Source: Flavobacterium sp. J372 (GTDB lineage Bacteria > Bacteroidota > Bacteroidia > Flavobacteriales > Flavobacteriaceae). Taken from it: a DNA stretch of 64,000 nt. The stretch lies in assembly GCF_024699965.1 (NCBI RefSeq), contig NZ_JAJOMZ010000004.1, positions 3,194,001 to 3,258,000 of the forward strand, in the 5' to 3' direction. Made by a program: the position numbers and the translations under genes. Positions 17,262 through 43,125 of the stretch are shown piece by piece. Under the pieces are notes generated by a model that saw only the letters and a program-made list of their open reading frames with translations, did not search any database and was not told the origin of the DNA. Each line of letters opens with the position of its first letter. Positions within the stretch are counted from its first letter, which is position 1.

Positions 17262-17349
17262 AGAGAGGTGGCCGAGTGGTCGAAGGCGCACGCCTGGAAA
17301 GTGTGTATGCTCCAAAAGGGCATCGAGGGTTCGAATCCCTTCCTCTCTG
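17262..17349 (+). tRNA. tRNA-Ser (GGA)
   Basis: An 88-nt class II tRNA. The acceptor arm AGAGAGG (17262-17268) pairs with CCTCTCT (17342-17348), with discriminator G at 17349 and no encoded CCA. The anticodon stem CACGC/GTGTG closes the loop CTGGAAA, giving anticodon GGA. A long variable arm follows, as expected for serine. The T arm is GGGTTCGAATCCC. The gene is the insertion point of the neighbouring island: an integrase gene begins 272 bp after it, and the 3' half of the tRNA would be the attachment core. Confidence 0.95.
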
Positions 17350-17397
17350 CGAAAAAGGACTCAATTATGAGTCAAAAATATCTTAAATAGCTAAAAA

Positions 17398-17621: not shown

Positions 17622-18935
17622 ATGTTGGAAAGCAGTTTTGGATTAACCTTCTTTTTGAGGACTCCGCGAAGAAAGACCAATATCAGGTCTATTTATTTGA
17701 GAATTACCGTTGACGGTATTCCTAAAGAAACATCTATTAAATGTACCTGGGATTTAACCAGGTGGGATCAAAAAACAGAACGTGCAACCGGGAGCAAGGA
17801 AGATGCACGCGTCTTAAACAATGTGCTTGATGCAATAACCGTCAAAGTAAATAAGAGAAAAGCTGATCTTATCTATGCCGAGGAAACAATCACTGCACAA
17901 AAGCTTATCGATTATGTCAAGGGAAAGGTTGCTTCCAGGGCAAAGGTTCTGGAAGAATTCCAACTTCATAACGACGAAGTCAAAGCCCTTGTACCAAAAG
18001 AGTATTCAGCAGGAACACTTGAACGTTTTGTTACCGCTAAATCTCACGTCAGGGATTTTATAAAGTTTAAGTACAGGGTAGATGATCTGGAGTTTAGGGA
18101 ACTGAATTTCCAGTTTGTTAAAGATTATGAATTCTACCTTAAAACGGTCAAAGGATGCTGTAATAATACTACGTTGAAATATATATCGAATTTTAAAAAG
18201 ATAGTATTGCGGGCAATTGCAAAGGAAATTATAACGGTTGACCCTTTTAAACTTTTCAAGGGGAAAAAGACGAAGACCAATAAAAAGCCTTTAAGTAGGG
18301 AAGAACTCCTAAAAATCGAGAGGCATAGTTTTTCTACACCAAGACTTGAATTAGTACGCGATATTTTTGTATTCCAATGTTATACGGGCTTAGCTTATAT
18401 TGATGTATTTAACCTAAAAGCATCAGACATTAAAACTGGCATTGATGGTGAGCCATGGATTATGACTGAAAGGCAGAAAACCGGTTCAGAAACCAATGTC
18501 CCACTGCTGCCACAAGCTTTGGAAATCATGTCGCGTTACAAAGGTCATCCACTCAGTGAAAAGCGCGGTGCTGTGCTACCAGTCAAATCAAATCAAAAGA
18601 TGAACGCCTATCTGAAAGAAATCGCAGACTTATGCGGCATCAACTGCGAATTGAACACGCACAAAGCGCGTAGAACGTTTGCAAGTACAGTAACCCTCGG
18701 CAACAATGTTCCGATACATGTTGTGAAGGAAATGCTCGGCCATCATTCCATTCAGCAAACGGAAGAGTATGCTATCACTGAGAAACAGAGTATATCACGA
18801 GAGATGCAGGGACTAAGGCATAAATTTGCCGTTGAAAAAGCAAGCAAGCCTGAAGTAACGTGGGAGGCCATTCATAAATTAGAGAATGAACTTCAGGAAA
18901 TGAAAATGAAATTCCTCACCATTCAAAGTGCATAA
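17622..18935 (+). CDS. int: Tyrosine recombinase / integrase of the island
   Basis: 437-residue site-specific recombinase. The N-terminal ~90 residues form the Bacteroidota arm-DNA-binding domain (KTNIRSIYLRITVDGIPKE), followed by a SAM-like core-binding domain (~105-210) and the catalytic domain (~220-410). Catalytic residues seen are the Lys in RQKTGS, H347 and R350 in HKARR, H374 in LGHHS and the nucleophile Y383 in TEEYA. The first catalytic Arg is replaced by Ala (residue ~258, CYTGLAYIDV), a change also known in conjugative-transposon integrases of this phylum. It sits 272 bp from tRNA-Ser, pointing away from it, and most likely mediated insertion there. Confidence 0.93.
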   Translation: MLESSFGLTFFLRTPRRKTNIRSIYLRITVDGIPKETSIKCTWDLTRWDQKTERATGSKEDARVLNNVLDAITVKVNKRKADLIYAEETITAQKLIDYVKGKVASRAKVLEEFQLHNDEVKALVPKEYSAGTLERFVTAKSHVRDFIKFKYRVDDLEFRELNFQFVKDYEFYLKTVKGCCNNTTLKYISNFKKIVLRAIAKEIITVDPFKLFKGKKTKTNKKPLSREELLKIERHSFSTPRLELVRDIFVFQCYTGLAYIDVFNLKASDIKTGIDGEPWIMTERQKTGSETNVPLLPQALEIMSRYKGHPLSEKRGAVLPVKSNQKMNAYLKEIADLCGINCELNTHKARRTFASTVTLGNNVPIHVVKEMLGHHSIQQTEEYAITEKQSISREMQGLRHKFAVEKASKPEVTWEAIHKLENELQEMKMKFLTIQSA

Positions 18936-28333: not shown

Positions 28334-28639
28334 ATGGTACAGTACAATGACATGGTGCAGGCACTTAAAGACCTAAGACAGCGTGGGTACAGTATGGACT
28401 TTAGTCTGTTGCCGGACTGCCTTTACTGTGCGTCAAAGAGCCTGAAACTAAAACCGGAGGATTTTACGGTTACGGAAACTCATAGGTTTGAAAGCCTCGA
28501 CAGTAGTCCTGATAACAATGCCGTGATTTATGCCATATCGTCCAATGACGGTAAGAGCAAAGGGGTACTTGTTGATGCCTATGGTACTTATGCTGAAGAA
28601 ATGTCCCATGAGATGGTAAAAAAATTAAATGCAACATAA
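28334..28639 (+). CDS. Small conserved protein, 101 residues
   Basis: Cytosolic protein with the pattern DLRQRGYSMDFSLLPDCLYC, then AISSNDGKSKGVLVDAYG. Close Bacteroidota relatives are often labelled 'phosphoribosylpyrophosphate synthetase', but at 101 residues it has none of that enzyme's catalytic regions and the label should not be taken literally. It lies 14 bp after the HMA-DUF3347 gene and 18 bp before copB, hence in the operon. Role unknown. Confidence 0.72.
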   Translation: MVQYNDMVQALKDLRQRGYSMDFSLLPDCLYCASKSLKLKPEDFTVTETHRFESLDSSPDNNAVIYAISSNDGKSKGVLVDAYGTYAEEMSHEMVKKLNAT

Positions 28640-28657: not shown

Positions 28658-30781
28658 ATGAAAAAATACACGTGTCCTATGCACCCGCAGGTGCTAAAAG
28701 ACGAACCAGGCAAATGCCCTCTTTGTGGCATGGCATTGGTTCACGTTGGCGGTACGTCAGCTTCTCATGAACACACATCAGAACATGGGCATTCCGGGCA
28801 TTCTCAACATGGCCATGCTGATGAAAACTTTAATAAACATGAGGGACATCATACAGGCGATTTCCTCACACGTTTTTGGATAAGCCTTGTCATTACAATC
28901 CCTATCCTGCTCCTGTCGCACATGATACAGCAATGGTTAGGTTTCTCCCTTGTTTTCAATGGCGATAAATATGTGCTGCTGGCATTGGGTACGGTGATTT
29001 ATAGCTATGGAGGCTTGCCATTCCTAAAAGGAATGATTGGCGAGATAAAAGCCAAGGCCATAGGCATGATGACCCTTGTCGCCATTGCCATATCCGTAGC
29101 CTATGTCTATTCCGTAGCCGTTGTATTTGGCTTGCAGGGTATGGACTTCTTTTGGGAACTGGCAACCCTTATTGACATCATGCTGTTAGGGCATTGGCTG
29201 GAAATGCGTTCCCAAATGGCTGCTTCACGGGCATTGCAGTCATTGGTGGCTTTGCTGCCCAACGATGTTACCGTGGAACGTGGCGGAGAAGCCGTAAAGA
29301 TAAAGCTCGAAGACCTGCAAAGCGGTGAAACGGCTATCATAAAACCGGGTGAAAAAATTCCAGCCGATGGATTGGTACTGGAGGGGCTTTCGTATATCAA
29401 CGAGAGTATGCTTACCGGAGAAAGTGTTCCCGTAAAAAAGGAAAAAGACGGAAAGGTCATCGCAGGCTCTATCAATGGCGATGGTGCGCTGAAAGTCAAG
29501 GTAACAGCCGTGGGAAAAGACAGCTACCTGAACAGGGTTATCAATCTTGTGCAGGAAGCGCAGGCTACCAAGTCTAATACACAGAACCTTGCGGACAAAG
29601 TTGCCAAATGGCTCACCTTTATTGCCATTGCCGTTGGCATAGGCACATTTGCCTATTGGTATGCAAGCAGTGGAGATATTGCCTTTGCGCTTGAAAGAAT
29701 GGTGACGGTGATGGTAACGGCCTGCCCGCACGCATTGGGCGTGGCTATCCCGTTGGTGGTCGCCATTTCCACAACGCTTTCGGCGACCAATGGCCTGCTC
29801 ATCCGCAACCGTACGGCATTTGAAACCACCCGCAAACTTTCCACCGTCATTTTTGATAAGACTGGTACACTCACCAAAGGTTCCCATGCAGTAGAAAAGG
29901 TTATACCGTTAACGGATGAATATAATGCCGATGAGGTTATCCAGTATGCTGCCGCAGTACAGCAAAATTCGGAACACCATATTGCTAAAGGCATTATGGC
30001 TACATTGAAAGAAAAGAGCCTTGCCTTATGGAAATCTGAAAACTTTAGCTATATGCAGGGCATAGGTGTAAAAGGTGTCGTGAACGGCAAAAATATCGTA
30101 GCTGGCGGCCCGAATTATTTCACCGAAAACCACCTTTCCCTGCCGGAAATACCAAGCGAAATCAATCAGGAAGCCGAAACGGTCAACTTTGTCCTCATTG
30201 ATGACAGGGTAATCGGCATCATTACTTTGGCAGACAGCATCCGTGAGGGTTCGGCACAGGCGATTGAGGAACTCAAAAAAATGGGCATCAAGTCCTTTCT
30301 GCTCACCGGGGACAACGACAGGATTGCTGCTGCCGTAGCCGGAAAATTGGGTATGGACGGGTATTTGGCCAATGTGCTTCCGCATAACAAGCAGGAGAAA
30401 GTAAAGGAGTTTCAGGCAAAAGGCGAAATCGTAGCAATGACTGGTGATGGTGTAAATGATGCACCTGCACTGGCACAGGCAGATGTTGGAATTGCCGTGG
30501 GTTCCGGTACGGACGTGGCTGCCGAAACAGCCGATATCATATTGGTGGACAGCGACCCGAGGGATGTGGTCAAACTGATTGACTTTGGCAGACTTACCTA
30601 CAAGAAAATGATACAGAACCTGATATGGGCGGTTGGCTACAACGTGGTGGCAATACCACTTGCAGCAGGTATATTCTATCCAAATTTTGTTTTAAGCCCA
30701 GCAATGGGTGCGGTATTGATGAGCGTAAGTACGATAGTAGTAGCGATTAATTCCCAACTTTTAAAAAGGAGACTGTCATGA
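28658..30781 (+). CDS. copB: CopB-type copper P1B ATPase (CPH)
   Basis: 707-residue inner-membrane metal pump. The N-terminus carries a heavy-metal-binding domain (YTCPMHPQVLKDEPGKCPLC, then GMALV) followed by a His-rich stretch (~30-65). The membrane metal site is CPH at 356-358, phosphorylation site DKTGT at 400-404, hinge GDGVNDAPAL near 600. CPH marks the P1B-3 group, which exports Cu2+ and/or Cu+/Ag+, distinct from the CPC-type CopA upstream. Its stop overlaps the cusA start (ATGA), so it is translationally coupled to the RND pump. Confidence 0.92.
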   Translation: MKKYTCPMHPQVLKDEPGKCPLCGMALVHVGGTSASHEHTSEHGHSGHSQHGHADENFNKHEGHHTGDFLTRFWISLVITIPILLLSHMIQQWLGFSLVFNGDKYVLLALGTVIYSYGGLPFLKGMIGEIKAKAIGMMTLVAIAISVAYVYSVAVVFGLQGMDFFWELATLIDIMLLGHWLEMRSQMAASRALQSLVALLPNDVTVERGGEAVKIKLEDLQSGETAIIKPGEKIPADGLVLEGLSYINESMLTGESVPVKKEKDGKVIAGSINGDGALKVKVTAVGKDSYLNRVINLVQEAQATKSNTQNLADKVAKWLTFIAIAVGIGTFAYWYASSGDIAFALERMVTVMVTACPHALGVAIPLVVAISTTLSATNGLLIRNRTAFETTRKLSTVIFDKTGTLTKGSHAVEKVIPLTDEYNADEVIQYAAAVQQNSEHHIAKGIMATLKEKSLALWKSENFSYMQGIGVKGVVNGKNIVAGGPNYFTENHLSLPEIPSEINQEAETVNFVLIDDRVIGIITLADSIREGSAQAIEELKKMGIKSFLLTGDNDRIAAAVAGKLGMDGYLANVLPHNKQEKVKEFQAKGEIVAMTGDGVNDAPALAQADVGIAVGSGTDVAAETADIILVDSDPRDVVKLIDFGRLTYKKMIQNLIWAVGYNVVAIPLAAGIFYPNFVLSPAMGAVLMSVSTIVVAINSQLLKRRLS

Positions 30782-32052
30782 TAGAGAAAATTATTTCATG
30801 GTCAACGCACAACCGCTTTTTCGTGTGGATAGGCATACTGCTGATTGTGGTTGGGGGCGTATGGTCGGTAATGACCACACCGGTTGATGCCATCCCCGAC
30901 CTTTCCGAAAATCAGGTCATCGTTTACACCGAATGGATGGGACGTAACCCCCAAATCATGGAAGACCAGATTACCTACCCTTTGGTTTCCAACTTGCAGG
31001 GTATTCCCAACGTTAAGGCCATTCGTGCAGCATCTATGTTTGGCATGAGTTTCATCTTTGTTGTATTTAATGACGATGCAGAAATCTATTGGGCAAGAAC
31101 CCGTGTTTTGGAGCGGTTGAACTTCGCTCAAAAAGCATTACCACAAGGGGTAACTCCCACTCTCGGTCCCGATGGAACAGGCGTGGGTCATGTTTTTTGG
31201 TACACGCTTCAGGGCGATGGTTACGATTTGGGCGAACTCCGTGCAGTGCAGGACTGGTATGTAAAATTTGCAATGCAGAATGTAGAAGGTGTGAGCGAGG
31301 TGGCCTCTTTCGGAGGTTTCCAAAAACAATATCAGGTGAGCGTCAATCCCAACAAACTTATTTACTACAACATTTCAGCAATGGATGTGGCAAATGCCCT
31401 TAAAGCCAACAATCGTGACGTTGGAGGAAGTATCTATGAAATGAACCGTATGGGTTATATGATTAGAGGATTAGGTTATATCAAAGACATCCGGGATATA
31501 GAAGAAATTTCCGTTGGCTCAAATAAATCCATTCCCATCAAGCTGAAAGATGTTGCCGATGTACAAATGAGCAGCGACATCCGATTGGGAATTGTAGAAG
31601 AAAACGGCGAAGGCGAAGTAGTGGGCGGTGTGGTGGTTGCCAGATATGGCGAAAATGCAAAAGAAGTGATTGACCGTGTAAAAGAAAGGTTAGGCGATGT
31701 GGAAAAAGGTTTGCCTCCCGGAGTGAAGATTAAAATTGCTTACGACCGTAGCAATTTAATTGAAGCTGCCATTGCAACATTGAAAGAGGCGTTGTGGGAA
31801 GAAATTATTGTGGTTTCATTAGTGGTGCTGATTTTTCTTTTCCATGTGCGAAGCGCAGTAGTGGCCATTGTTACCATTCCCTTGTCGGTGCTGATTGGCT
31901 TTATGTTCGTGAAAATGTTTGGCATTTCACTCAACATTATGTCATTGGGCGGTATTGCCTTAGCCATTGGCGATTTGGTGGATGCGGGAATTGTGATGAC
32001 TGAAAACGCTTATAAAGGTTTAGTAAAAGCAGTTTTAAAATCAGAAGAATAA
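30778..32052 (+). CDS. cusA: CusA/CzcA heavy-metal RND pump, N-terminal fragment
   Basis: 424 residues corresponding to the first ~40% of a heavy-metal RND pump. It starts MIEKIISWSTHNRFFVWIGI, with TTPVDAIPDLSENQVIVYTEW as in CusA, the first periplasmic porter domain, and transmembrane helices up to DLVDAGIVMTENAYKGL. It stops after KSEE in the cytosolic loop between helices 4 and 5. The next fragment starts at the overlapping TAATG. Together the fragments (30778-33969) equal ~1,064 residues, the normal CusA length. A break in the original gene is likelier than a designed split. Overlap with copB shows they were one operon. Confidence 0.75.
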   Translation: MIEKIISWSTHNRFFVWIGILLIVVGGVWSVMTTPVDAIPDLSENQVIVYTEWMGRNPQIMEDQITYPLVSNLQGIPNVKAIRAASMFGMSFIFVVFNDDAEIYWARTRVLERLNFAQKALPQGVTPTLGPDGTGVGHVFWYTLQGDGYDLGELRAVQDWYVKFAMQNVEGVSEVASFGGFQKQYQVSVNPNKLIYYNISAMDVANALKANNRDVGGSIYEMNRMGYMIRGLGYIKDIRDIEEISVGSNKSIPIKLKDVADVQMSSDIRLGIVEENGEGEVVGGVVVARYGENAKEVIDRVKERLGDVEKGLPPGVKIKIAYDRSNLIEAAIATLKEALWEEIIVVSLVVLIFLFHVRSAVVAIVTIPLSVLIGFMFVKMFGISLNIMSLGGIALAIGDLVDAGIVMTENAYKGLVKAVLKSEE

Positions 32053-33969
32053 TGGAAAAGCAAAGAATAGGAAATACAAAAGAATTGAGTGAGGAAGAAC
32101 GTATCAAAATCATTGAACGCTCATCACGCACTGTTGGAAGAGCCGTTTTCTTTTCCATATTGGTAACGCTCATTTCATTCTCTCCCATATTGTTTCTCGA
32201 AGGGCAGGAAAAGAAAATGTTTTCGCCTTTGGTATGGACAAAAACCTTTACTATGATTGGCTCCGCCATTATAGCATTATTTGTTGTCCCAATGCTGTTG
32301 CGTTCTTTAATGAAAGGCAAGCTCATTCCTGAAAGCAGAAACCCCGTTGCAAATTTCTTTATAAAAATATACAGCCCTGTTTTGCGCCTTTGCCAGCATT
32401 GGAAAAAAACGGTAATTGCTATTGCTGCTTTAATCGTGGTGGGTAGCATTCCTTTTGTAGTGCGTTTGGGTTCGGAATTTATGCCACCGTTAGACGAAGG
32501 TTCTCTTTTGTTTATGCCCGTTACACTTCCTGATGTTTCCAACAACGAAGCCAAACGTATTTTGCAGGTGCAGGACAAGCTCATTATGTCCGTTCCCGAA
32601 GTGGAAAATGTTCTGGGCAAAGCAGGTCGTGCCTATACTGCAACCGACAATGCTCCGGTAAGTATGATTGAAAGCATTGTTGTATTAAAACCCCAATCGG
32701 AGTGGCGTAAAGGCATGACCACCGAAAAGCTGATTTCGGAACTGAACGAAAAAGTGCAGATACCTGGTGTTACAAGTGGTTGGACACAGCCTATAATCAA
32801 TCGTATCAATATGCTTTCGACAGGTGTCCGGACAGATATTGGTGTGAAAATTTATGGGCAAAACTTAGATACTATCTACAACCTTTCAAGGCAAATTGAA
32901 AAATCATTGAAAGGTATTGATGGGCTTGCAGATTTATATGTAGAGCAACTCACAGGGGGGAAATATTTGGATATAAGAATTAATCGGGAAGAAATTGCCC
33001 GATATAATCTTTCTATTGAAGAAGTGAATATGCTTATTGAAATGGCATTAGGAGGAATGCCTTTGACCAATACCATTGAAGGCAGGCAGCGTTTCAGCGT
33101 TTCCATACGCTTAGCGCAGGATTTTAGAAGCGATATAGAAGAAATAAAACGAACGCCTTTGCAGACATCGGGTTACGGTGTTATTCCATTGTCAGCAGTG
33201 GCGGATGTTGAAATTTCGGAAGGCCCGCCAATGATAAATTCTGAAAATGCCATGCTGCGGGGAACGGTTCTGTTCAATGTGCGTGGCAGGGATATGGGAA
33301 GCGTAGTTGGCGATGCTAAAAAACGTATTGATGCAGATTTTCAAAAGCTGCCCAAAGGCTATTTTATTGAATGGAGTGGGCAATATGAAAATAAGGTTCG
33401 AGCAGAGAACCGTTTAAAAATCATCATTCCCATTACGCTTTTGATAATTGCTTTTGTCCTCTATTTCACTTTCCATTCGGTTAAGGAAATGGTGATTGTC
33501 CTTTCAAGTATTCCCATTGCATTAATCGGGGGGTATATTCAATGTATTTTTTCGATGTGAATTTTTCGGTAGCTGTTGCGGTAGGTTTTATTGCCTTATT
33601 CGGCATTGCGGTAGAGACTGGTGTATTGATGCTCGTCTATATGAATGAAGCCATAAGAGATACAGTAGAAAAAAGAAAAGTGCTGAACTCTCAAACGAAG
33701 ATGTCGAGAAAGCCGTGTTTTCCGGTGCCGTAATGCGTGTACGACCTAAACTGATGACGGTAATGGCCGATATGATTGGTTTAATGCCTATTCTTTTGGC
33801 AACAGGTGTAGGTAGTGATGTCATGAAGCCTATTACAATACCTTTTGTTTTTGGCCTAATAACTTCTACTCTTTTCGTATTAATCGTTTTGCCAGTTATA
33901 TATCAAATCGTCAAGGAAAGAGAAATAAAAAAATATGGTAAAGTAGAATTTTTAGAAAACATAGATTAA
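32052..33969 (+). pseudogene. cusA: CusA/CzcA C-terminal part, two further frameshifts
   Basis: This continues the pump from MEKQRIGNTKELSEEERIKI through FSPILFLEGQEKKMFSPLVWT, the second porter domain with methionine-containing metal sites, to the final helices. At a six-G run (33528-33533) one G is missing; restoring it joins SSIPIALIGG to VYSMYFFDVNFSV. At a six-A run (33669-33674) one A is missing; restoring it joins DTVEKK to KSAELSNEDVEKAVFSGAV. The frame then reaches its stop at 33967-33969, where the next gene starts. Without correction no full pump can be made, although CusC and CusB genes downstream are intact. Confidence 0.75.
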
Positions 33970-36590
33970 TGAAAACAGTAAACCCACATACAATTCCTGT
34001 AACAGAACTTATCACTGAACTTGGCAGTGATATAAAACAAGGATTGAACTCCCTTGACGCTGCAAAGCGTATTGAAAAATACGGGAGTAATAGTATTCAA
34101 TCCGATAAAGGAAAACACCCTTTAAAAATAGTCCTGTCGCAGTTTAATAACCTCTTGGTGTATTTGTTGTTGTTTGCAGCCGCCATGTCGTTTTGGTTTC
34201 AGGAATATTTGGATGCAACGGCAATTCTGCTTGTAATACTTGTTAATGCAACCATTGGCTTTTGGATGGAAATGCAGGCGGAACGCTCCATGAATGCGCT
34301 GAAAAAAATGGTCAGTGTCCCTTCCAAAGTTTTCAGAAATGGTAAGCTGACCGAAATAGCATCCGAAGAATTAGTTCCGGGCGATTTGCTGTTTGTTGAA
34401 GCAGGTGAGATGATTACCGCAGATGCAAGAATTATTTCCGCTACACAACTTTCCATAAATGAAGCATCGCTTACGGGCGAAGCCATGCCTGTTGAAAAAA
34501 CAGCAAGCGAACTTTCGGGAGATATTCCACTTGCTGACCGCACCAATATGTTGCACAAAGGCACTTTCGTTACCAACGGAAACACCACTGCCCTTGTGGT
34601 TGCAACAGGTATGCAAACCGAATTAGGCAAAATCGCACACCTCGTGCAGGGAGCAGAGCAATCAGCCACTCCACTTGAAAAAAAGTTACAGGTATTCAGT
34701 CGTAAACTCATTTACATAACAGTTGCTTTAGTGGTGCTGATTTTCATTGTCGGTATGTTCACGCATGGCGATTATGTGGAATTGCTTGAAACGGCCATTG
34801 CCCTTGCAGTAGCAGCCATACCCGAAGGACTTCCCATTGTGGCAACCCTTGCATTGGCTCAAGGGATGATGAAAATGGCAAGGCATAATGTCATCGTAAA
34901 AAAACTTTCGGCAGTAGAAACCTTAGGAGGCACAACCGTTATTTGCACCGATAAAACAGGAACACTTACTCAAAATAAAATAGAAGTAACAGATTTAATC
35001 CCTGCTGATGAAACTTCTGAAAAGAATAAACAACTCCTTCAGCATATAGCTGTTTTATGCAACACCGCATCCATTCAGATTTTAGAAAACGACATTAAAG
35101 AAATTGGCGACCCGCTGGAAACGGGCTTACTGAAATATGCACACAACAAAGGAGAGAATGTTGAGCGGTTGCGTCAACAGTTTCCTAAAATAGATGAAGT
35201 CCCGTTTTCATCGGAAACAAAAATGATGGCAACGCTACACGGCAATCAAAACGATTTTATAGTTTGTGCTAAAGGCGCAGCAGAAGAAATACTCAAACAG
35301 TGCAGTCATATTCTTAACGGTTCTGAAATTAAAGAGATGAATGAAGAAACAAGAAACCAATGGAAAGACAAATCTGAACAATTGGCATCATCCGGTTTAA
35401 GAGTTATTGCTGGTGCTTTTAAAGAAACTGCTTCAAAAGATGTTGCACTCACAGACAGTTTGGTTTTTGCCGGACTATACGGAATGATGGATCCGCCAGC
35501 CGAAGATGTGTTTGATGCAATCAATGAATGTAAAGATGCAGGTATTAAAGTAGTGATGATTACAGGCGACCATCCTGCCACTGCAAATTATATAGCCAAC
35601 CAACTTCATATATCCGAAAACACGCAACCTGTCATCGGCAAGAACATGAAGCCCTTTGAACAGTTAAGCGAACAGGAAAAAAATCTTTGGGCTGACACTT
35701 CTGTTTTCGCAAGGGTTACACCCGCTCATAAATTGGATTTGGTAAGAGTGTTGCAGGAAAAAGGAAACATCGTTGGCATGACAGGTGATGGTGTAAATGA
35801 TGCTCCTGCTTTGAAGAAATCAGACATCGGCATCGCAATGGGAGTGAGAGGAACACAAGTGGCACAGGAAGTGTCAGACATGGTATTGAAAGACGATAAA
35901 TTTTCGTCCATAGTTCATGCAATAAAGCAAGGTCGTGTTATTTTTACTAATGTTCAGGAATTTGTGATTTACCTGCTTTCCTGCAACATGAGCGAATTGT
36001 TTGTGGTGTCATTAGCTGCGTTGTCCAATCTGCATTTTCAATTAATTCCGCTGCAAATACTTTTTATCAATCTAATAACAGATGTGTTGCCCGCCCTTGC
36101 TTTGGGCGTAAGCGAAGGCAGTCCGTATGTTATGAAACACAAGCCCCGAAATCCGGCTGAACCGCTGTTAAAAACAAAACAGTGGTATGCTGTTTGGATT
36201 TATGCGGCAATCATTTCCGTTTGCACATTGGGAGCAGTATTCTTTAGCCATTTTGTTTTGCATACAGGCGAACACTTTGACCCGAAACTCTGCAACAACA
36301 TTTTATTCTTTACTCTTATTGTTTGCCAGTTGTTCCATGTGTTCAACATGGCATCGGTCAAAACTTCTTTTATAAAATCTGAAGTATTCCAAAATAAATA
36401 TGTTTGGTATGCACTGCTTACAAGCGGGTTAGTCGTGGTTTCCGTATTTTTTATTCCTCCAGCTCGTGAAGCATTGAATGTTCAGTCGCTGAAAGCGGAA
36501 GACTGGTTGATTGTTTTCGTATCTGCTTCGATTTCACTATTGGTTATTCAAATTTTAAAACGAACAAATCTAATTCACGATGAAGATTAA
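33969..36590 (+). CDS. P2-type cation-transporting ATPase
   Basis: 873-residue ATP-driven cation pump of the P2A (Ca2+-ATPase-like) group. Seen: cation-ATPase N-terminal domain (1-~70), actuator TGEAMPV (~175), PEGLP in helix 4 (AAIPEGLPIV), phosphorylation site DKTGTLTQ at 328, KGAAEEIL, TGDHPATA, GDGVNDAPAL, and C-terminal helices with NLITDVLPALALG. It does not carry the CPx metal signature of CopA/CopB, so it moves Ca2+, Mn2+ or another cation, not copper. It starts on the last base of the cusA stop (TAATG) and overlaps the nuclease gene by 11 bp, opening a tight four-gene cassette. Confidence 0.9.
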   Translation: MKTVNPHTIPVTELITELGSDIKQGLNSLDAAKRIEKYGSNSIQSDKGKHPLKIVLSQFNNLLVYLLLFAAAMSFWFQEYLDATAILLVILVNATIGFWMEMQAERSMNALKKMVSVPSKVFRNGKLTEIASEELVPGDLLFVEAGEMITADARIISATQLSINEASLTGEAMPVEKTASELSGDIPLADRTNMLHKGTFVTNGNTTALVVATGMQTELGKIAHLVQGAEQSATPLEKKLQVFSRKLIYITVALVVLIFIVGMFTHGDYVELLETAIALAVAAIPEGLPIVATLALAQGMMKMARHNVIVKKLSAVETLGGTTVICTDKTGTLTQNKIEVTDLIPADETSEKNKQLLQHIAVLCNTASIQILENDIKEIGDPLETGLLKYAHNKGENVERLRQQFPKIDEVPFSSETKMMATLHGNQNDFIVCAKGAAEEILKQCSHILNGSEIKEMNEETRNQWKDKSEQLASSGLRVIAGAFKETASKDVALTDSLVFAGLYGMMDPPAEDVFDAINECKDAGIKVVMITGDHPATANYIANQLHISENTQPVIGKNMKPFEQLSEQEKNLWADTSVFARVTPAHKLDLVRVLQEKGNIVGMTGDGVNDAPALKKSDIGIAMGVRGTQVAQEVSDMVLKDDKFSSIVHAIKQGRVIFTNVQEFVIYLLSCNMSELFVVSLAALSNLHFQLIPLQILFINLITDVLPALALGVSEGSPYVMKHKPRNPAEPLLKTKQWYAVWIYAAIISVCTLGAVFFSHFVLHTGEHFDPKLCNNILFFTLIVCQLFHVFNMASVKTSFIKSEVFQNKYVWYALLTSGLVVVSVFFIPPAREALNVQSLKAEDWLIVFVSASISLLVIQILKRTNLIHDED

Positions 36591-37461
36591 CGCTGAAAAT
36601 ATAAACATCATTAAGGCATCAGGCGAAAAAGCTCCGTTCAACAAAGGAAAGCTAAAACAATCGTTGCTGCGTTCTGGTGCAACTAACGAACAGGCAGATG
36701 AAATTACCAATGAAGTAATCGAAATGCTGGTTGAAGGAATGTCCACCCGGAAGATTTACAAAACTGCATTTCGATTGCTGAGAAATTATTCCCGTCCGGC
36801 AGCAGCACGTTATAAACTCAAACAAGCCATTATGGAATTGGGACCTTCCGGTTTTCCGTTTGAGCAATTTGTTGGCGAACTTTTAAAACATAGAGGTTAC
36901 AAAACGCAAGTGGGCGTAATTGTAAAAGGACATTGTGTAAACCATGAAATTGATGTGATTGCCGAAAAAGACGAACACCATTTTATGATTGAGTGCAAAT
37001 TTCATAACCGTCAGGGTTACTCGTCCGATGTTAAAATCCCGCTATACATTCAGTCAAGATTTTTAGATGTGGAAAGACAATGGAAACAGTTAGATGGTCA
37101 TTCTGAAAAATTTCATCAGGGTTGGGTAGTAACCAATACTCGCTTTTCAGAAGATGCTGCTCAATACGGAAGGTGCATGAATATGAACCTTGTGAGTTGG
37201 GATTACCCCAAACATAATGGGTTAAAAGACTGGATTGATGGTTCGGGATTACACCCCGTAACCTGCCTTACAACGCTTACCCAAAAAGAGAAACAACAAT
37301 TATTAGACAGAAAAATAGTGCTGTGTAAAACCATGCATCACAATCAAAGTGTGTTGCAAAACATAGGCATCCATTCACCACGGTTGGAAAAAGTAATGGA
37401 AGAATGTTCGGCATTGTGTGAAGAATTCTCAGCAAAGAAATTTCAAAGTATAAAACAATAA
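36580..37461 (+). CDS. ATP-cone/Mrr-type restriction-endonuclease-like fusion
   Basis: 293 residues. Residues ~8-92 are an ATP-cone (IIKASGEKAPFNKGKLKQSL, then ARYKLKQAIMELGPSG), the nucleotide-sensing module of ribonucleotide reductases and NrdR. Residues ~95-200 are a PD-(D/E)xK nuclease of the Mrr family: FPFEQFVGELLKHRGY, NHEIDVIAE, then MIECKF (catalytic D and E-x-K). The C-terminal ~90 residues are unassigned with several cysteines. The fusion suggests a nuclease gated by ATP or dATP; this is inference. Both ends are coupled: it overlaps the ATPase by 11 bp and lies 2 bp before the metallo-hydrolase. Confidence 0.85.
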   Translation: MKINAENINIIKASGEKAPFNKGKLKQSLLRSGATNEQADEITNEVIEMLVEGMSTRKIYKTAFRLLRNYSRPAAARYKLKQAIMELGPSGFPFEQFVGELLKHRGYKTQVGVIVKGHCVNHEIDVIAEKDEHHFMIECKFHNRQGYSSDVKIPLYIQSRFLDVERQWKQLDGHSEKFHQGWVVTNTRFSEDAAQYGRCMNMNLVSWDYPKHNGLKDWIDGSGLHPVTCLTTLTQKEKQQLLDRKIVLCKTMHHNQSVLQNIGIHSPRLEKVMEECSALCEEFSAKKFQSIKQ

Positions 37462-37463
37462 TT

Positions 37464-38855
37464 ATGAACGACAATAAAATCAAAATCCAATTCTTAGGTG
37501 CTGCCGGAACAGTTACCGGCTCAAAGTATCTTGTTACTGCTTTTGGTAAAAAAATACTGATAGACTGCGGTTTGTTTCAGGGGCTAAAAGAACTCCGGCA
37601 ACTAAATTGGCAACCATTAGCCGTTTCAGCAAAAACTATTGATATAGTATTACTAACACATGCACACTTAGACCACACAGGCTACCTCCCCTTACTGGTG
37701 AAGCATGGTTTTAGCGGAACAATCAACGGCACTTCACCAACCTTACAGATTGCCGAAATCATTTTAAAAGACAGTGCAAAAATTCAGGAAGAAGATGCAG
37801 AGAGAGCGAACAAATTCCGCTACTCAAAACACAAGCCCGCTTTGCCGCTTTATGGCTTGCCTGATGTGGAAAATACTTTGCCGCTTTTTCAACCGCAACC
37901 CCTCAATCAATGGTTACAAATTAACGAGCATATCCGATACCGTTTCCGATACAACGGACATATTATTGGTGCTACATTTATTGAATTGCAGATTGGCGAA
38001 AAAACATTAGTCTTTTCCGGTGATATTGGCAGGGAGATAGACCCACTTTTGTTTCCACCGGAAAAGCCTGAAAAAGCGGATGTTTTATTTATTGAAGCCA
38101 CTTATGGCAACCGCCTTCATCCTGTCGAACCAGCCATCAACAATTTGGAAAAACTTATTAATCGTTGCATGGCAAGAAACGGCACTATCATCATACCGAG
38201 TTTTTCGGTAGAGCGGACACAGTTACTCATGTATCTGTTTTGGCAGTTAAAAAAGACCAATAAAATTCCCGATATACCTATTTATATGGATAGTCCTATG
38301 GGAAGAAATGTTTTGGAAGTTTTTCATAGAAATACAGATTGGCATAAACTCTCCACCGATGAATGTTCTGAAATGTGCAACACCATAAAGCGTATTAAAA
38401 GTGTTGATGAAACTTTTGCACTTGCAGAAGACAATACACCTAAAATAATTATTGCCGGAAGCGGAATGGCGGCAGGAGGCAGAGTGCTTACTTACTTTGA
38501 AAAATACTTAGGCGATGAAAGCGCAACTATTCTGTTGGTTGGCTTTCAGGCGGAAGGAACAAGAGGAAGAGCTTTACTTGAAGGTGCATCTGAAATCAAG
38601 ATGAGAGGTAAATTCTATGCAGTAAAAGCTCATATTGAAAATATTGAAGGATTATCCGGTCATGCCGACCAAAATGGATTGATTGACTGGATGAGAAAAC
38701 TGCAATCCAAACCGGATAAAATTTTTATTGTCCACAGCGAAGCGGATGGCGCAAAGGGATTGCAGGAAAAAATAAAAGAAGTTTATAAATGGGATAGTGA
38801 AATTCCTGTCCTTAATCAGCGAAACGAATTTGAATTAAAAATCAAAAGGCCATGA
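37464..38855 (+). CDS. MBL-fold beta-CASP RNA-processing-type hydrolase
   Basis: 463-residue cytosolic metallo-beta-lactamase-fold protein of the CPSF73/YSH1 group. Visible: FLGAAGTVTGSKYLV, THAHLDHTGYLP (zinc-binding HxHxDH), GDIGRE (metal Asp), the beta-CASP insert with a Lys-rich KPEKADVLFIEATYG region, SFSVERTQ, SGMAAGGRVLTY, and a C-terminal RMMBL with LSGHADQNGL and IVHSEADG. Family members cut or trim RNA, sometimes DNA. It is third in the cassette, ending in an ATGA overlap with the NTPase gene. Confidence 0.9.
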   Translation: MNDNKIKIQFLGAAGTVTGSKYLVTAFGKKILIDCGLFQGLKELRQLNWQPLAVSAKTIDIVLLTHAHLDHTGYLPLLVKHGFSGTINGTSPTLQIAEIILKDSAKIQEEDAERANKFRYSKHKPALPLYGLPDVENTLPLFQPQPLNQWLQINEHIRYRFRYNGHIIGATFIELQIGEKTLVFSGDIGREIDPLLFPPEKPEKADVLFIEATYGNRLHPVEPAINNLEKLINRCMARNGTIIIPSFSVERTQLLMYLFWQLKKTNKIPDIPIYMDSPMGRNVLEVFHRNTDWHKLSTDECSEMCNTIKRIKSVDETFALAEDNTPKIIIAGSGMAAGGRVLTYFEKYLGDESATILLVGFQAEGTRGRALLEGASEIKMRGKFYAVKAHIENIEGLSGHADQNGLIDWMRKLQSKPDKIFIVHSEADGAKGLQEKIKEVYKWDSEIPVLNQRNEFELKIKRP

Positions 38856-39391
38856 AACACAAAGAAATTATCACAAACTGGAATGTAATTACAGGGGGGC
38901 CCTGCACGGGGAAAACCACGGTAGTAAACCTGCTTGCCGAAAGAGGTTACAAAACCACTATTGAACATGCACGTCATTACATTGATACGCAAAAAATAAA
39001 AGGGCGCACGGTTGAAGAAATTCGTGAAAACAAAAAAGAATTTCAGTTAGGAGTGCTGAATATGCAGATTGAAGAAGAAGCAACCTTAGATGTAAATGAA
39101 ATGGTGTTTTTAGACCGCGCCTTACCCGATGCAATGGCATACTATCAGTTCTTGGGTTTAGAATATGACGACAGGTTAATAGAACAGTGTAATAAATATT
39201 GCTACAAGCAAGTTTTCATATTAGACCGTTTGCCGCTTACCAACGACTATGCAAGATTAGAAGACGAAGCAGAGCAAATCCGTATTCATAACCTGATAAT
39301 TAAGGTGTATGAAACATTCCCTTGCCCTATTGTTCATGTGCCGGTTCTGCCACCGGAAGAACGGGTTGATTTTATTCTAAAACACATTTAG
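38852..39391 (+). CDS. AAA_28-type P-loop NTPase/kinase-like protein
   Basis: 179 residues. Walker A is TGGPCTGKTTVVNLL (~13-27), then ARHYID, a LDRALPDAMAYY lid-like segment and an ILDRLPLTNDYAR loop. This is the AAA_28 family of small P-loop proteins, related to nucleotide and NadR-type kinases. The substrate is unknown. It overlaps the MBL gene by 4 bp (ATGA) and ends 3 bp before cusC, so it is the fourth and last gene of the cassette set between cusA and cusC. Confidence 0.85.
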   Translation: MKHKEIITNWNVITGGPCTGKTTVVNLLAERGYKTTIEHARHYIDTQKIKGRTVEEIRENKKEFQLGVLNMQIEEEATLDVNEMVFLDRALPDAMAYYQFLGLEYDDRLIEQCNKYCYKQVFILDRLPLTNDYARLEDEAEQIRIHNLIIKVYETFPCPIVHVPVLPPEERVDFILKHI

Positions 39392-39394
39392 AGC

Positions 39395-40645
39395 ATGAAA
39401 AAGATAGTTTCAACAATAGTATTATTGGTTTGTCTGCTCCAGCTTCACGCTCAAGACACAACTTATATTTCGCTGGAAAAGCTGTTGCAGCAGGTGGAAA
39501 CTAATTACCCGTCCATTATTCAGTACCAATACAGCATACAGTCTATTCAGGCAAAAGCAGACGGTGCAAAAGCATGGATGCCGCCCACTTTTTCAACAGG
39601 CATCATGCGTTTCCCTTACGACTTCTCCATGCTCAAAGAAAAAAACGACCCAATGAACCAGGCGGGTATTGCTTTTTCCGTTGAACAGATGATACCCAAT
39701 CCAAGCAAACTGAACGCCAAGAAAAGTTACATCAGTTCACTGGCTGAAATCGAAAAATCAAAAAGTGAATGGACAAAAAACGAGTTGAGGCGTGAAGCGA
39801 AAATTCTGTACTACAACCGTTATGTAACCGAGAAGAAACAACGCATTCTAAAAGAAAGTGAAGAAATACTTCAATTGCTCATCACGACATCCGAAGAGAA
39901 ATTTACCAATAACCAGTCGCAACTGCAAACGATATATAAAGCAAAAGCCCGCTTAGCCGAATTAAAAAATATGCTGGTGATGCTCAACAGCGTGATTGCA
40001 GAAAGCAATATCGGATTAAACACGCTGATGTTGCGTGATGCAAACACGCCATTTCAGATTGATACACTCATTTCGCCAAGCAACTACCTATTCAGCATTG
40101 CAGATACTGTAAGCATTTCTAACCGTAGTGATATTACGGCGCTTGACAAATACATTCAATCCATGAAGTTGGAGCAAAAAGTAATGAGAACAAGCGCAAG
40201 ACCTGACTTTGGTATCCGTGCCGAACATGCCCAAATGTTTGGTATGCCAAGCCAATGGTCAGTTATGGGAATGGTAACAATTCCCATTGTTCCCTGGTCG
40301 TCTAAAATGTATTCCTCTGAAGTAAAGTCAATCGGTTTTCAAATTCAGTCTATGGAACGGGAAAAGGAAACAATGCAACTCATGGCTTCAAAAATGTTAG
40401 CCGAAAAAACTGCGATGCTTAATTACGAAAACGAACAATATCAGAGCTACACAAAAAATATTGTTCCCGCCTATGAGAACAACCTGCAAGCCAACCTGCT
40501 TGCCTACAAGCAAAACACAGGCGATTTTTTTGTGCTGCTGGATGCCTGGGAAATGTTGCTGATGAAAAAAATGGAAGCGTATGACAAACTGTTCAATATT
40601 TTAAAATTGGAAGCCGAATATGAATACGAAAGAGAAATTAAATAG
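39395..40645 (+). CDS. cusC: Outer-membrane TolC-family efflux protein CusC-like
   Basis: 416-residue outer-membrane efflux protein with a signal peptide (cleavage after QLHAQ, ~20). Long alternating helices and coiled-coil stretches (IEKSKSEWTKNELRREAKI and later) match the TolC alpha-barrel repeats. It would form the exit duct of the CusCBA copper/silver pump. Its 3' end overlaps the first CusB adaptor by 26 bp. Its natural partner cusA lies 5.4 kb upstream behind the inserted cassette. Confidence 0.85.
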   Translation: MKKIVSTIVLLVCLLQLHAQDTTYISLEKLLQQVETNYPSIIQYQYSIQSIQAKADGAKAWMPPTFSTGIMRFPYDFSMLKEKNDPMNQAGIAFSVEQMIPNPSKLNAKKSYISSLAEIEKSKSEWTKNELRREAKILYYNRYVTEKKQRILKESEEILQLLITTSEEKFTNNQSQLQTIYKAKARLAELKNMLVMLNSVIAESNIGLNTLMLRDANTPFQIDTLISPSNYLFSIADTVSISNRSDITALDKYIQSMKLEQKVMRTSARPDFGIRAEHAQMFGMPSQWSVMGMVTIPIVPWSSKMYSSEVKSIGFQIQSMEREKETMQLMASKMLAEKTAMLNYENEQYQSYTKNIVPAYENNLQANLLAYKQNTGDFFVLLDAWEMLLMKKMEAYDKLFNILKLEAEYEYEREIK

Positions 40646-41918
40646 CATCTGCATTATGGTGTGTTTGCTTTTGGTAGCTGCGTTATCATCCTGCAAAAAT
40701 GAACAAGGTGAACAAGGGTATGAAAATCATGAGAAGGTTGAGGGCGAGTACATCTGCCCCATGGGTTGCGAAGGTGATAAAACCTATCCGCACCCCGGCG
40801 ATTGTCCTGTATGTAATATGAAATTGCAGTTGGTGGAAAAAGAATTGGAGCAGGCAGTTTCACCAAACAAACTGGTCTTGTCAAATCAGGCAACCTTTAG
40901 ACTGCAATCAGGCAACAGTGGAAAAACCGAGAAAGCGCAAGGCTTTATTACCCTCGCTCAAAACAGAAATCAATCCGTTGCAGCCCGTTTCGGAGGAAGG
41001 ATTGAGAAGCTATACGTTAAATTCAGCAACCAATACGTAAAGCAAGGCGATAAAATCATGGACATATACAGCCCCGGCTTACGCACCTTTCAGGAAGAAC
41101 ATCTTTTTCTTTTCAAATCAGGTGCAGATAATTATTTAATAGAAAAGTCGAGAGAAAAGCTACGTCTGCTCGGTATTACCGAAAATCAGATTGCGCAGTT
41201 GGAAAAAAAGGGAGCAGTTGCCCTAACAGTTTCTGTTTTCAGTCCTTCAAACGGATATGTTTTTTTCAATGCTTTAACATCGCAGCAAAACACTACTGCA
41301 AAAAGCACATCGGCAATGAACGACATGGGTACGCAGCAGAATGCCATCAATACAAGCTCTTATGCTGTTTCCGCTTCGCAAATTCGTGAAGGCACATATG
41401 TAAACGAAGCACAAACCCTTTTCAATATAAATGATTTACAGGAAGTTTGGGTATTGGTTTCAGTTCCCAACCGAAACGTAAGTCAAATTCACGAAAACCA
41501 ATCTGCACAAATAGTTTCTGAAAGCGACCCTTCAAAACTTCTCAACGGAAAAGTTGCTTTGATTGAAAAGACATTTGAAGAAACTGACCAGCGTTTTGCA
41601 AGAGTTAGGATTGTGTTGCCCAATCCCAATAATTCGCTGAAAATAAATTCGCTTGTTACCGCAGGCTTTGCTTTGAGCGGTAATGAAAATTTACAGGTTC
41701 CATCAACGGCAGTTTACACTACGGGATTGAATGCTTACGTATGGGTCAAAACAGATACTACCCGCAATGGAGCGGGAGTTTTTCAGGTGCGGAAAGTAAT
41801 TGCTGGAGCAAGCAACAACGGAATGACAATCATTAAAAGCGGTCTTTCACCTACTGAAGAAATTGCAAAACAAGCGGGTTTGATGACTGACAGTGAAACT
41901 TTTTTAAATGCAAATTGA
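40620..41918 (+). CDS. cusB: RND periplasmic adaptor CusB-like, copy 1 (lipoprotein)
   Basis: 432 residues, lipoprotein signal (ALSSC, lipid Cys ~25). A heavy-metal-binding domain YICPMGCEGDKTYPHPGDCP follows (~43-62). The membrane-fusion domains include lipoyl-like FGGRIEKLYVKFSNQYVKQG, a helical hairpin and an adaptor beta barrel. It would link CusA to CusC and may capture Cu+/Ag+ through Met/Cys residues. It overlaps cusC at the 5' end and the second adaptor at the 3' end. Confidence 0.88.
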   Translation: MNTKEKLNSICIMVCLLLVAALSSCKNEQGEQGYENHEKVEGEYICPMGCEGDKTYPHPGDCPVCNMKLQLVEKELEQAVSPNKLVLSNQATFRLQSGNSGKTEKAQGFITLAQNRNQSVAARFGGRIEKLYVKFSNQYVKQGDKIMDIYSPGLRTFQEEHLFLFKSGADNYLIEKSREKLRLLGITENQIAQLEKKGAVALTVSVFSPSNGYVFFNALTSQQNTTAKSTSAMNDMGTQQNAINTSSYAVSASQIREGTYVNEAQTLFNINDLQEVWVLVSVPNRNVSQIHENQSAQIVSESDPSKLLNGKVALIEKTFEETDQRFARVRIVLPNPNNSLKINSLVTAGFALSGNENLQVPSTAVYTTGLNAYVWVKTDTTRNGAGVFQVRKVIAGASNNGMTIIKSGLSPTEEIAKQAGLMTDSETFLNAN

Positions 41919-41919
41919 C

Positions 41920-43125
41920 ATGAAGCAGTTTATTATCTCAACTATATTGCTTTCAATACTCATTCTTACGGGTTGTAAGAACGGGCAAGAAAGCCATCAG
42001 GAAACATCCGGCAGTTATTATACTTGCCCCATGCACCCAAGTGTAGCAAGCGAAACACCTGGTTCTTGTCCCGTTTGTAATATGTCTTTAATCAAAGTAG
42101 AGAAGAAAGAAACCGACCATGCAGGAATGCAAGGCAACATTATCACCATTGACAAGCATAAGCAGGCATTGGCAGGTATTGAAACAGATACCGTCAGAAA
42201 AAGAAACATTTTATCATCTTCCGTTATTTTAGGAACAGTTGCCATTAATGAAGAACAGGTAAAGACCATTAGCAGCCGTGCAAAAGGAAGGATTGACGAA
42301 CTGTTTGTAAGAAACACAGGTGTATATCTTCAAAAAGGAAGACCCCTTTACAGTATTTACAGTGAACAACTGCAAACAGATGAAAAGGAATATCTGTCCG
42401 TGCTGGAAAAAGCAAAAACAACAATCCCTATATCTAAGCTGACAAGCGATTTATTAAGTGCTGGAAAAAACAAATTGACATTGTGGGGTTTAACCGAAAA
42501 GCAAATTTCCGAACTGGAAACATCGGGCAAAACAAATTCCCTCATTACATTTTATTCGCCCGAAGCGGGATATGTAAGCGAAGTAAACATCAACGAGGGC
42601 ATGTATGTGGCAGAAGGCAGTCCACTTGTAAAAATCACCTCGCTCAATGAGGTTTGGGTCGAAGCGCAATTGTATCCCAATGAAATTTCAGGACTTGAAG
42701 AAATCAAGACCTTTCAGGTGTTTGCCGACAGTAATCCCGGAGAAGTTTACAAAGGTACGTTGGTTTACTCCAACCCGGTAATAGAAGAAGGCAAAAGAAT
42801 TTACCTGCTTAAAATCAGGGTAAACAATTCAGCCGGTAAACTTATACCCGGCACATTGGTTTCGGTCGTTCCCGAAAAATCGTTTACCAATGTGCTGGCA
42901 GTTCCTAAATCGGCAGTACTGCTGGAAAAGATGAAAACCGTTTGGGTATTGGCCCATGATAACACATTTGAGCAACGCATGGTAGAAACAGGTGTGCAAA
43001 ACAAGCAGTGGATTGAAATTACATCAGGATTAAAACCAGGTGACATCGTTGTTACCGAAGGTGCATATTTAATCAGCAGTGAGTTTATACTTAAAAGCGG
43101 AGCAGGACAAAGACATGACCATTAA
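41920..43125 (+). CDS. cusB: RND periplasmic adaptor CusB-like, copy 2 (lipoprotein)
   Basis: 401 residues. ATG 41920 gives a clean lipoprotein signal (MKQFIISTILLSILILTGC); an in-frame ATG at 41908 would add four residues and overlap the previous gene. A metal-binding domain YYTCPMHPSVASETPGSCPV is followed by lipoyl and barrel domains (KGRIDELFVRNTGVYLQKG, VWVEAQLYPNEI). It is similar to copy 1 but clearly diverged, so the two adaptors may form mixed assemblies or serve different pumps. A decayed P-type ATPase tail lies just after it. Confidence 0.87.
   Translation: MKQFIISTILLSILILTGCKNGQESHQETSGSYYTCPMHPSVASETPGSCPVCNMSLIKVEKKETDHAGMQGNIITIDKHKQALAGIETDTVRKRNILSSSVILGTVAINEEQVKTISSRAKGRIDELFVRNTGVYLQKGRPLYSIYSEQLQTDEKEYLSVLEKAKTTIPISKLTSDLLSAGKNKLTLWGLTEKQISELETSGKTNSLITFYSPEAGYVSEVNINEGMYVAEGSPLVKITSLNEVWVEAQLYPNEISGLEEIKTFQVFADSNPGEVYKGTLVYSNPVIEEGKRIYLLKIRVNNSAGKLIPGTLVSVVPEKSFTNVLAVPKSAVLLEKMKTVWVLAHDNTFEQRMVETGVQNKQWIEITSGLKPGDIVVTEGAYLISSEFILKSGAGQRHDH

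Follow-up and report, generated by a model that had tools for sequence, protein, structure and literature searches.

The lxa locus of Burkholderia cenocepacia includes Usp genes. As far as the excerpts of its description go, it is a 50-gene low-oxygen cluster with an alpha-crystallin (BCAM0278), a phosphofructokinase (BCAM0311) and a protein of the MBL superfamily (BCAM0300, listed with a value of 50.96 that we take for kDa) (PMC6127331). A hypoxia-induced Usp is the subject of a further paper (PMC9733578), and another strain of B. cenocepacia is entirely without the lxa locus (PMC3759415). Here, we compare these and other described systems with a four-gene cassette in a 64,000-nucleotide stretch of Flavobacterium sp. 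J372 (contig NZ_JAJOMZ010000004.1, positions 3,194,001 to 3,258,000), hereafter the window. The cassette encodes a P2-type cation pump, an ATP-cone fused to an AF1548-type nuclease, a ribonuclease (RNase)-like beta-CASP protein and an AAA_28 P-loop protein, and lies within a cus operon (Table 1). We tentatively read it as a minimal, exchangeable version of a low-oxygen and low-energy stress island in a mobile slot of that operon, which we regard as possible and just short of probable.

We infer the low-oxygen, low-energy character of the module from published work in which related genes respond to low oxygen. The wider islands around relatives of the nuclease resemble lxa in having an MBL protein, an alpha-crystallin and a phosphofructokinase; the excerpted description of lxa mentions no ATPase, whereas the cassette has its P2 pump (PMC6127331). 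In Bradyrhizobium diazoefficiens, bll3115-bll3117 (MBL protein, PRPP (phosphoribosyl pyrophosphate) synthetase and phosphorylase) were 15.4-, 7.7- and 5.1-fold up at 0.5% oxygen, with microoxic induction in both transcript and protein, and are not marked as FixK2 targets; the table that lists them names no ATP-cone nuclease, and a CusA gene of this organism was up 6.4-fold under the same oxygen supply (PMC6515984). The pump of the window can be likened, by class and not by computed homology, to another P2A pump whose gene is induced by hypoxia, CtpF of Mycobacterium tuberculosis. The ctpF gene belongs to the DosR regulon. It encodes a calcium pump and was 100-fold up in hypoxia, and the excerpts of the report mention no nuclease or RNase partner (PMC7525011). 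The sequence-only reading had known of no described system with these four parts. The wider island does have described relatives, in lxa and in the Bradyrhizobium microoxic genes, while for the pair of ATP-cone nuclease and beta-CASP protein no paper was found in the open-licence literature. The suggestion by the sequence-only reading of a response to nucleic-acid damage found no support: nothing seen points to DNA damage, and the published expression of related genes points to low oxygen.

Table 1 Coordinates of the cassette, its cus flanks and further features of the window
Feature	Position	Strand	Details
P2A-type cation ATPase	33969..36590	+	873 aa; motifs DKTGT, TGE, PEGLP, NLITD
ATP-cone + AF1548-type PD-(D/E)XK nuclease fusion	36580..37461	+	293 aa; ATP-cone residues ~8-80
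MBL-fold beta-CASP RNase-like protein, TTHA0252-like	37464..38855	+	463 aa; HAHLDH at residue 66
AAA_28 P-loop protein	38852..39391	+	179 aa; Walker A GGPCTGKT
cusA N-terminal half, left flank of slot	30778..32052	+	
cusA C-terminal half, frameshifted in window	32052..33969	+	TAATG junction to N half
cusC-like outer-membrane efflux protein, right flank of slot	39395..40645	+	
Two cusB-like adaptor genes	40620-41918, 41908-43125	+	Named from sequence reading
Small open reading frame, family c10	28334..28639	+	101 aa; recurs in wider islands beside metal ATPases
tRNA-Ser(GGA)	17262..17350	+	Final 22 bp (17329-17350) repeated ~106.7 kb downstream; probable attachment site
Tyrosine integrase of carrying element	17622..18935	+	

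The compact layout proposed for the cassette was borne out by the calls of open reading frames (ORFs) and by direct reading of the sequence: all four ORFs lie on the plus strand, they are joined by TAATG, an 11-bp overlap (36580-36590), a 2-bp gap before 37464 and ATGA (38852-38855), and cusC follows after a gap of 3 bp. Because the cassette is wedged so tightly between cusA and cusC, a transcript shared with the cus genes is likely, judging from this arrangement. Terminator-like sites numbered 24 against 16.9 expected, with two on the plus strand in the cassette, both inside ORFs; a scan for sigma-70 promoters gave 31 sites against 34.2 expected.

In order to see which of the four families belong together, homologues were counted in 149 genomes of the same family, in 296 genomes from across the phylum, and in 58 GenBank relatives. 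The latter are stretches of up to 10 kb that were fetched with a cus-embedded query and often stop at contig ends; 57 of them (without L054) entered the neighbourhood scoring. From the 75 nuclease copies of the family sample and the 54 of the phylum sample, 20 regions each were selected. Related genomes are not independent, so that the Fisher value for the pairing of nuclease and beta-CASP in the family sample is purely descriptive, and the samples overlap in part (G395/L018 and G289/L024 are apparently the same genomes).

The nuclease was present in 62 of the 149 family genomes and a close beta-CASP homologue in 58, all of them among the 62, with nine weak partial beta-CASP matches set aside. 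At 63 of the 75 nuclease copies, the beta-CASP gene lay directly 3' on the same strand. Likewise, in the phylum sample, where the beta-CASP count took in the top 46 rows (at least 41% identity) and the nuclease pairing count merged two pieces of one nuclease and omitted three short second pieces, 33 of the 34 beta-CASP copies with at least 50% identity lay directly downstream of a nuclease, and the nuclease was present in every genome with such a copy (32/32). Close homologues of the AAA_28 protein (at least 64% identity) were rare, at 3 of the 149 family genomes and, at E <= 1e-40, 4 of the 296 phylum genomes, and these amount to five distinct genomes including the window, with the gene inside the nuclease cluster in all five; 142 of the 149 family genomes match AAA_28, most only through distant genes of ~25-37% identity. 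Pumps of at least 55% identity were found in three of the 296 genomes, every one adjoining the nuclease, while none of the other 15 matches (42-46%) was adjacent to it; this search scored three candidates per genome and reported them at E <= 1e-200, so that pumps can be missed. Of the 57 GenBank relatives, 27 have a P2 pump gene directly beside the nuclease gene (17 upstream, 10 downstream).

Among the 57 relatives, the 20 same-family regions and 22 further stretches, only L003 and L004 share with the window the gap-free order of pump, nuclease, beta-CASP and AAA_28 genes; the order without the pump also occurs in L036 and in L146 and L147, two stretches that stem from other genomes of the order and genus. 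The co-occurrence that the sequence-only reading had asked about thus exceeds chance for the pairings, within cus operons as well as away from them, but the four genes in exactly this order are rare. Its one functional unit stands insofar as the genes associate; they do so as a variable subset of a larger island of stress and nucleotide metabolism and not as a fixed four-gene system. Separately, a contig binned as Desulfobacteraceae (L016) carries nuclease, beta-CASP and AAA_28 genes with ~75-85% DNA identity to the window, which reflects either transfer across phyla or a binning error.

The position of the cassette beside cusA was correctly given, but cusA is made up of two ORFs, the second of which is frameshifted in the window. 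The same split is present in 14 relatives (L003-L005, L007-L009, L011-L014, L018, L020, L027, L031), and longer single ORFs of the family occur in L116 and L119; a CusA in two pieces would seem to be a conserved feature of the clade. Nearly identical relatives have an intact second half, and the frameshift in the window is either an assembly error or a recent loss. At all 11 slot loci (the window, L003, L004, L005, L007-L009 and L011-L014), a P2 gene and then the nuclease gene are the first identified genes after cusA, with one unassigned ORF earlier in L008. The further content includes the beta-CASP gene at nine loci, AAA_28 at seven, phosphorylase and PRPP synthetase at three, and MgtC and PPK2 at two; the slot contigs of L003, L007 and L009 stop before cusC.

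Identity profiles in 300-bp bins differ between insert and flanks. The window and L013 share 99-100% identity over cusA and only 66-87% over the cassette, followed by 74% in the bin at the cusC start, 91-99% over the remaining cusC and 100% over cusB. Against L004, identity is 87-100% from 34077 to 39476 and 59-88% in the cus flanks. Flanks and insert thus have separate histories, and recombination inside the operon has swapped cassettes independently of the cus flanks. The profiles show an exchangeable slot in a split-cusA operon, which is new here. Near-identical flanks occur under different host names (L003 Sediminibacterium, L013 Chitinophagaceae, L014 Olivibacter), mostly in metagenome bins. 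Differences in content from locus to locus and exchange against conserved flanks would also fit a mere hot spot of recombination, at which unrelated genes brought in by a conjugative element accumulate. However, most of the variable genes form one recurring set that is also found away from cus, and the slot opens with the same two identified genes throughout; we consider such loose cargo very improbable.

The centrepiece of the cassette is the nuclease. Its N-terminus matches the Pfam ATP-cone with 33.7 bits (cut-off 25.8), and in fold comparison the cone superimposes on those of NrdR with a root-mean-square deviation of 1.5-2.0 over 76-82 residues. The protein also matches Mrr_cat, and its AF1548-like C-terminus scores 22.0 bits, slightly under the cut-off of 23.9. 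Fold and D...E-x-K residues place it in the PD-(D/E)XK class: D125, E138 and K140 are invariant in all 37 aligned rows, as are K12, G15 and K24 of the cone. The protein resembles an ATP sensor joined to an enzyme that cuts DNA or RNA. AF1548 of Archaeoglobus fulgidus (PDB 1y88), whose own activity is a prediction, matches the nuclease part alone, without an ATP-cone. The fusion of an ATP-cone to a nuclease of the AF1548 type, with a TTHA0252-like RNase as its partner, is a new-looking element. An NCBIfam match to an IS256 transposase (19.2 against 150 bits) was taken as chance. Distant nuclease relatives (L045, L047, L049, L053, L055) share parts of another conserved neighbourhood (c42-c44, c58-c60).

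Can2, Cdn1 and Card1 combine a sensor domain, CARF, with a PD-(D/E)XK nuclease. All three are among the fold matches of the nuclease part, but the sensor differs, being CARF in these proteins, whereas the cassette has an ATP-cone of the sort found in NrdR and ribonucleotide reductases; a PADLOC CARF_PDDEXK match covers only residues 91-145, and Pfam gives the ATP-cone at the N-terminus. The existence of such nucleotide-gated nucleases among CRISPR ancillary proteins, and the location on a mobile element, would suit an anti-phage role in which the ATP-cone nuclease reads a phage-altered nucleotide pool (e.g., a rise in deoxynucleoside triphosphates) and arrests the cell, with the beta-CASP and AAA_28 proteins as partners. 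Matches in PADLOC, however, are confined to the generic Mrr-like domain or, for MBL, are marginal, with none full-length to a known anti-phage system; two scans of viral contigs for close relatives of the AAA_28 and nuclease proteins only returned 3 and 2 pattern matches, none a relative; and the identified neighbours are stress, metabolic and metal genes. We consider this role quite improbable.

The beta-CASP protein comprises MBL, beta-CASP and RMMBL domains with an HxHxDH motif, and its best PDB match is the RNase TTHA0252 of Thermus thermophilus (E 1.9e-69), in whose class it falls. TTHA0252 is a 5'-3' exo-RNase, and the excerpts of its description mention no ATP-cone nuclease partner, unlike the situation in the cassette (PMC4229858). 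A type VII CRISPR Cas14 identity was rejected (NCBIfam NF045584, 380 bits against a cut-off of 800). Taken with the fold matches of the nuclease, the TTHA0252 match makes a nucleotide-sensing nuclease beside an RNase a fair reading. The AAA_28 protein has its Pfam match and weak similarity to NadR-kinase-type chains (E 0.003-0.03); its AlphaFold model is poor (predicted local distance difference test score 61), being built on ten rows 83-100% identical to the window.

The pump has the domains of a P2-type ATPase and the motifs PEGLP and NLxTD, which we take to be ion-site motifs from their roles in SERCA. Its best NCBIfam match is TIGR01522 (PMR1-type), and it scores under all three equivalog cut-offs (PMR1 640.7/798.3, SERCA 575.4/703.4, PMCA 474.9/507.05 bits); its top PDB matches are named calcium-transporting ATPase (6zhf and 9euq, lmo0841). 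By these comparisons it is a P2A cation ATPase, with Ca2+ and Mn2+ as candidate ions.

Profile searches around the nuclease relatives recovered a recurring set of neighbours: Usp, phosphorylase, PRPP synthetase, PPK2, MgtC/DUF4010, 2-hydroxyacid dehydrogenase, phosphofructokinase, class I fructose-bisphosphate aldolase, type II glyceraldehyde-3-phosphate dehydrogenase and Hsp20. The phosphorylase passes the cut-offs of both PRK04350 and TIGR02645, with 505 bits against 535 for AMP phosphorylase. Parts of this set recur on plasmids. A Pontibacter plasmid carries nuclease, MBL, phosphorylase and PRPP synthetase genes in that order, and a plasmid of Criblamydia, from another phylum, has an unbroken row of CusA, a cation P-type ATPase, phosphoketolase and glucan phosphorylase, followed by nuclease, MBL, phosphorylase, PRPP synthetase and acetate kinase. 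On a Pseudorhizobium plasmid, PRPP synthetase, a gene annotated as xylulose 5-phosphate 3-epimerase, MBL and phosphorylase are found, and on a Paraburkholderia plasmid an MBL gene shares its region with Usp, Hsp20 and Fnr genes; a further hit, on a Cupriavidus plasmid, came without annotation. From the clustered Usp, Hsp20, MBL and carbohydrate-enzyme genes that mark an lxa-type island, the cassette holds only the MBL member, and several of the others are present in some fuller relatives.

In a low-oxygen, low-energy state, the ATP-cone would read the adenine-nucleotide state and gate the fused nuclease, the adjacent beta-CASP enzyme would degrade RNA, and the AAA_28 protein may phosphorylate a nucleoside-like substrate. 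The pump would hold Ca2+ or Mn2+ balance in the same state. Cu(I) is favoured under low oxygen, and Cus would handle it there. In fuller relatives, the nucleoside-monophosphate-phosphorylase-like enzyme, PRPP synthetase and PPK2 would convert the products to PRPP and nucleotides; recycling to PRPP is plausible for these fuller versions only. The cassette of this host is the core of nuclease, RNase, AAA_28 protein and pump alone. A more specific joint reading would make the ATP-cone nuclease and its beta-CASP partner a nucleotide-gated effector of a new kind: the ATP-cone would switch the DNA or RNA nuclease on at a shift in ATP/dATP in energy-starved cells, much as CARF domains switch CRISPR ancillary nucleases, the AAA_28 protein would reclaim the products, helped in fuller versions by phosphorylase, PRPP synthetase and PPK2, and the module would travel as a swappable copper-operon insert; we regard this combination as doubtful. 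If the ATP-cone does gate the nuclease, the breakdown of nucleic acids would be under direct control of the adenine-nucleotide state of the cell; no description of such a role for an ATP-cone was found in the open-licence literature. The pairing rule, by which each genome with a close beta-CASP gene has the nuclease in both samples, makes two-protein biochemistry straightforward, and the exchangeable slot shows a module riding copper-resistance elements, linking copper, low oxygen and energy starvation as a testable question.

Several observations weigh against the stress-island reading. The expression data come from other phyla, and the likeness to bll3115-bll3117, as partner families of the nuclease/beta-CASP pair, is matched by product name only. 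Boxes of FNR type were not enriched (6 found, 12 expected). The cassette contains no Usp or Hsp20 gene, and a search of the host genome for the phosphorylase, made without positive control on an assembly that is ~95% complete, did not find it; therefore, recycling via that enzyme may not run here. A distant PPK2 (40%) and Usp domains are found elsewhere in this genome. Beyond the host, 21 of the 54 nuclease copies of the phylum sample are without a beta-CASP partner, beta-CASP occurs in 7 and Usp in 3 of the 20 phylum regions, and partners are almost absent around 21 distant nuclease relatives (L039-L060 without L054). A Legionella adelaidensis plasmid has its MBL gene beside alcohol dehydrogenases and metal ATPases, with no phosphorylase or PRPP synthetase in view. 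The NadR-type matches of the AAA_28 protein are no better than GDP-fucose synthase matches in the same list. Finally, homologues of RND metal efflux (cus-type) in the fetched stretches of 30 of the 58 relatives (E <= 1e-8, some 29-45% identity) fit a metal role too.

Such a role would make the cassette an accessory of metal homeostasis that complements copper resistance with Ca2+/Mn2+ export and the clean-up of nucleic acids and is induced by copper, not oxygen. In 20 of the 57 relatives, RND homologues are no further than 8.5 kb from the nuclease, P1B metal ATPases occur in 11 of the 20 same-family regions, and the tight wedge in the operon, with its likely shared transcript, speaks the same way. 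Yet the GenBank relatives came from a cus-embedded query, and in the regions selected from the other samples cus-type genes are a minority: 4 of the 20 phylum regions, and in the 20 family regions cusA-type in 4, cusB-type in 4 and cusC-type in 2. In the published data it is low oxygen that induces related genes, although a CusA gene rose too. The metal connection is real in many carriers, and this alternative therefore stays alive, as a rather unlikely one.

The cassette is carried on an element in tRNA-Ser that has the structure of an integrated conjugative element, also new here. Between the ends of the element, which extends over ~107 kb from window position 17262 to G000:C4:3318085 and holds the copper genes, we found genes for a relaxase, a coupling protein, TraG, TraJ and TraO; together with the integrase beside the tRNA-Ser and the end repeats, these are the parts of a Bacteroidota-type integrative conjugative element. 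No tRNA was found at the downstream copy of the 22-bp repeat, and the assembly has, at other places, two further complete copies of tRNA-Ser that share this end.

The small c10 ORF of the window had no NCBIfam match, and its relative in L102 no Pfam match. Three unnamed families, c13, c14 and c26, recur near the nuclease (L008 12268-12840, L009 12928-13524, L102 14941-15591), and their scanned members matched neither Pfam nor NCBIfam. In one clade (L021, L022, L025, L027-L029, L038), the nuclease-P2 pair closes a long conserved cluster of respiratory appearance that includes NrfD-like, cytochrome c and cusB-like genes.
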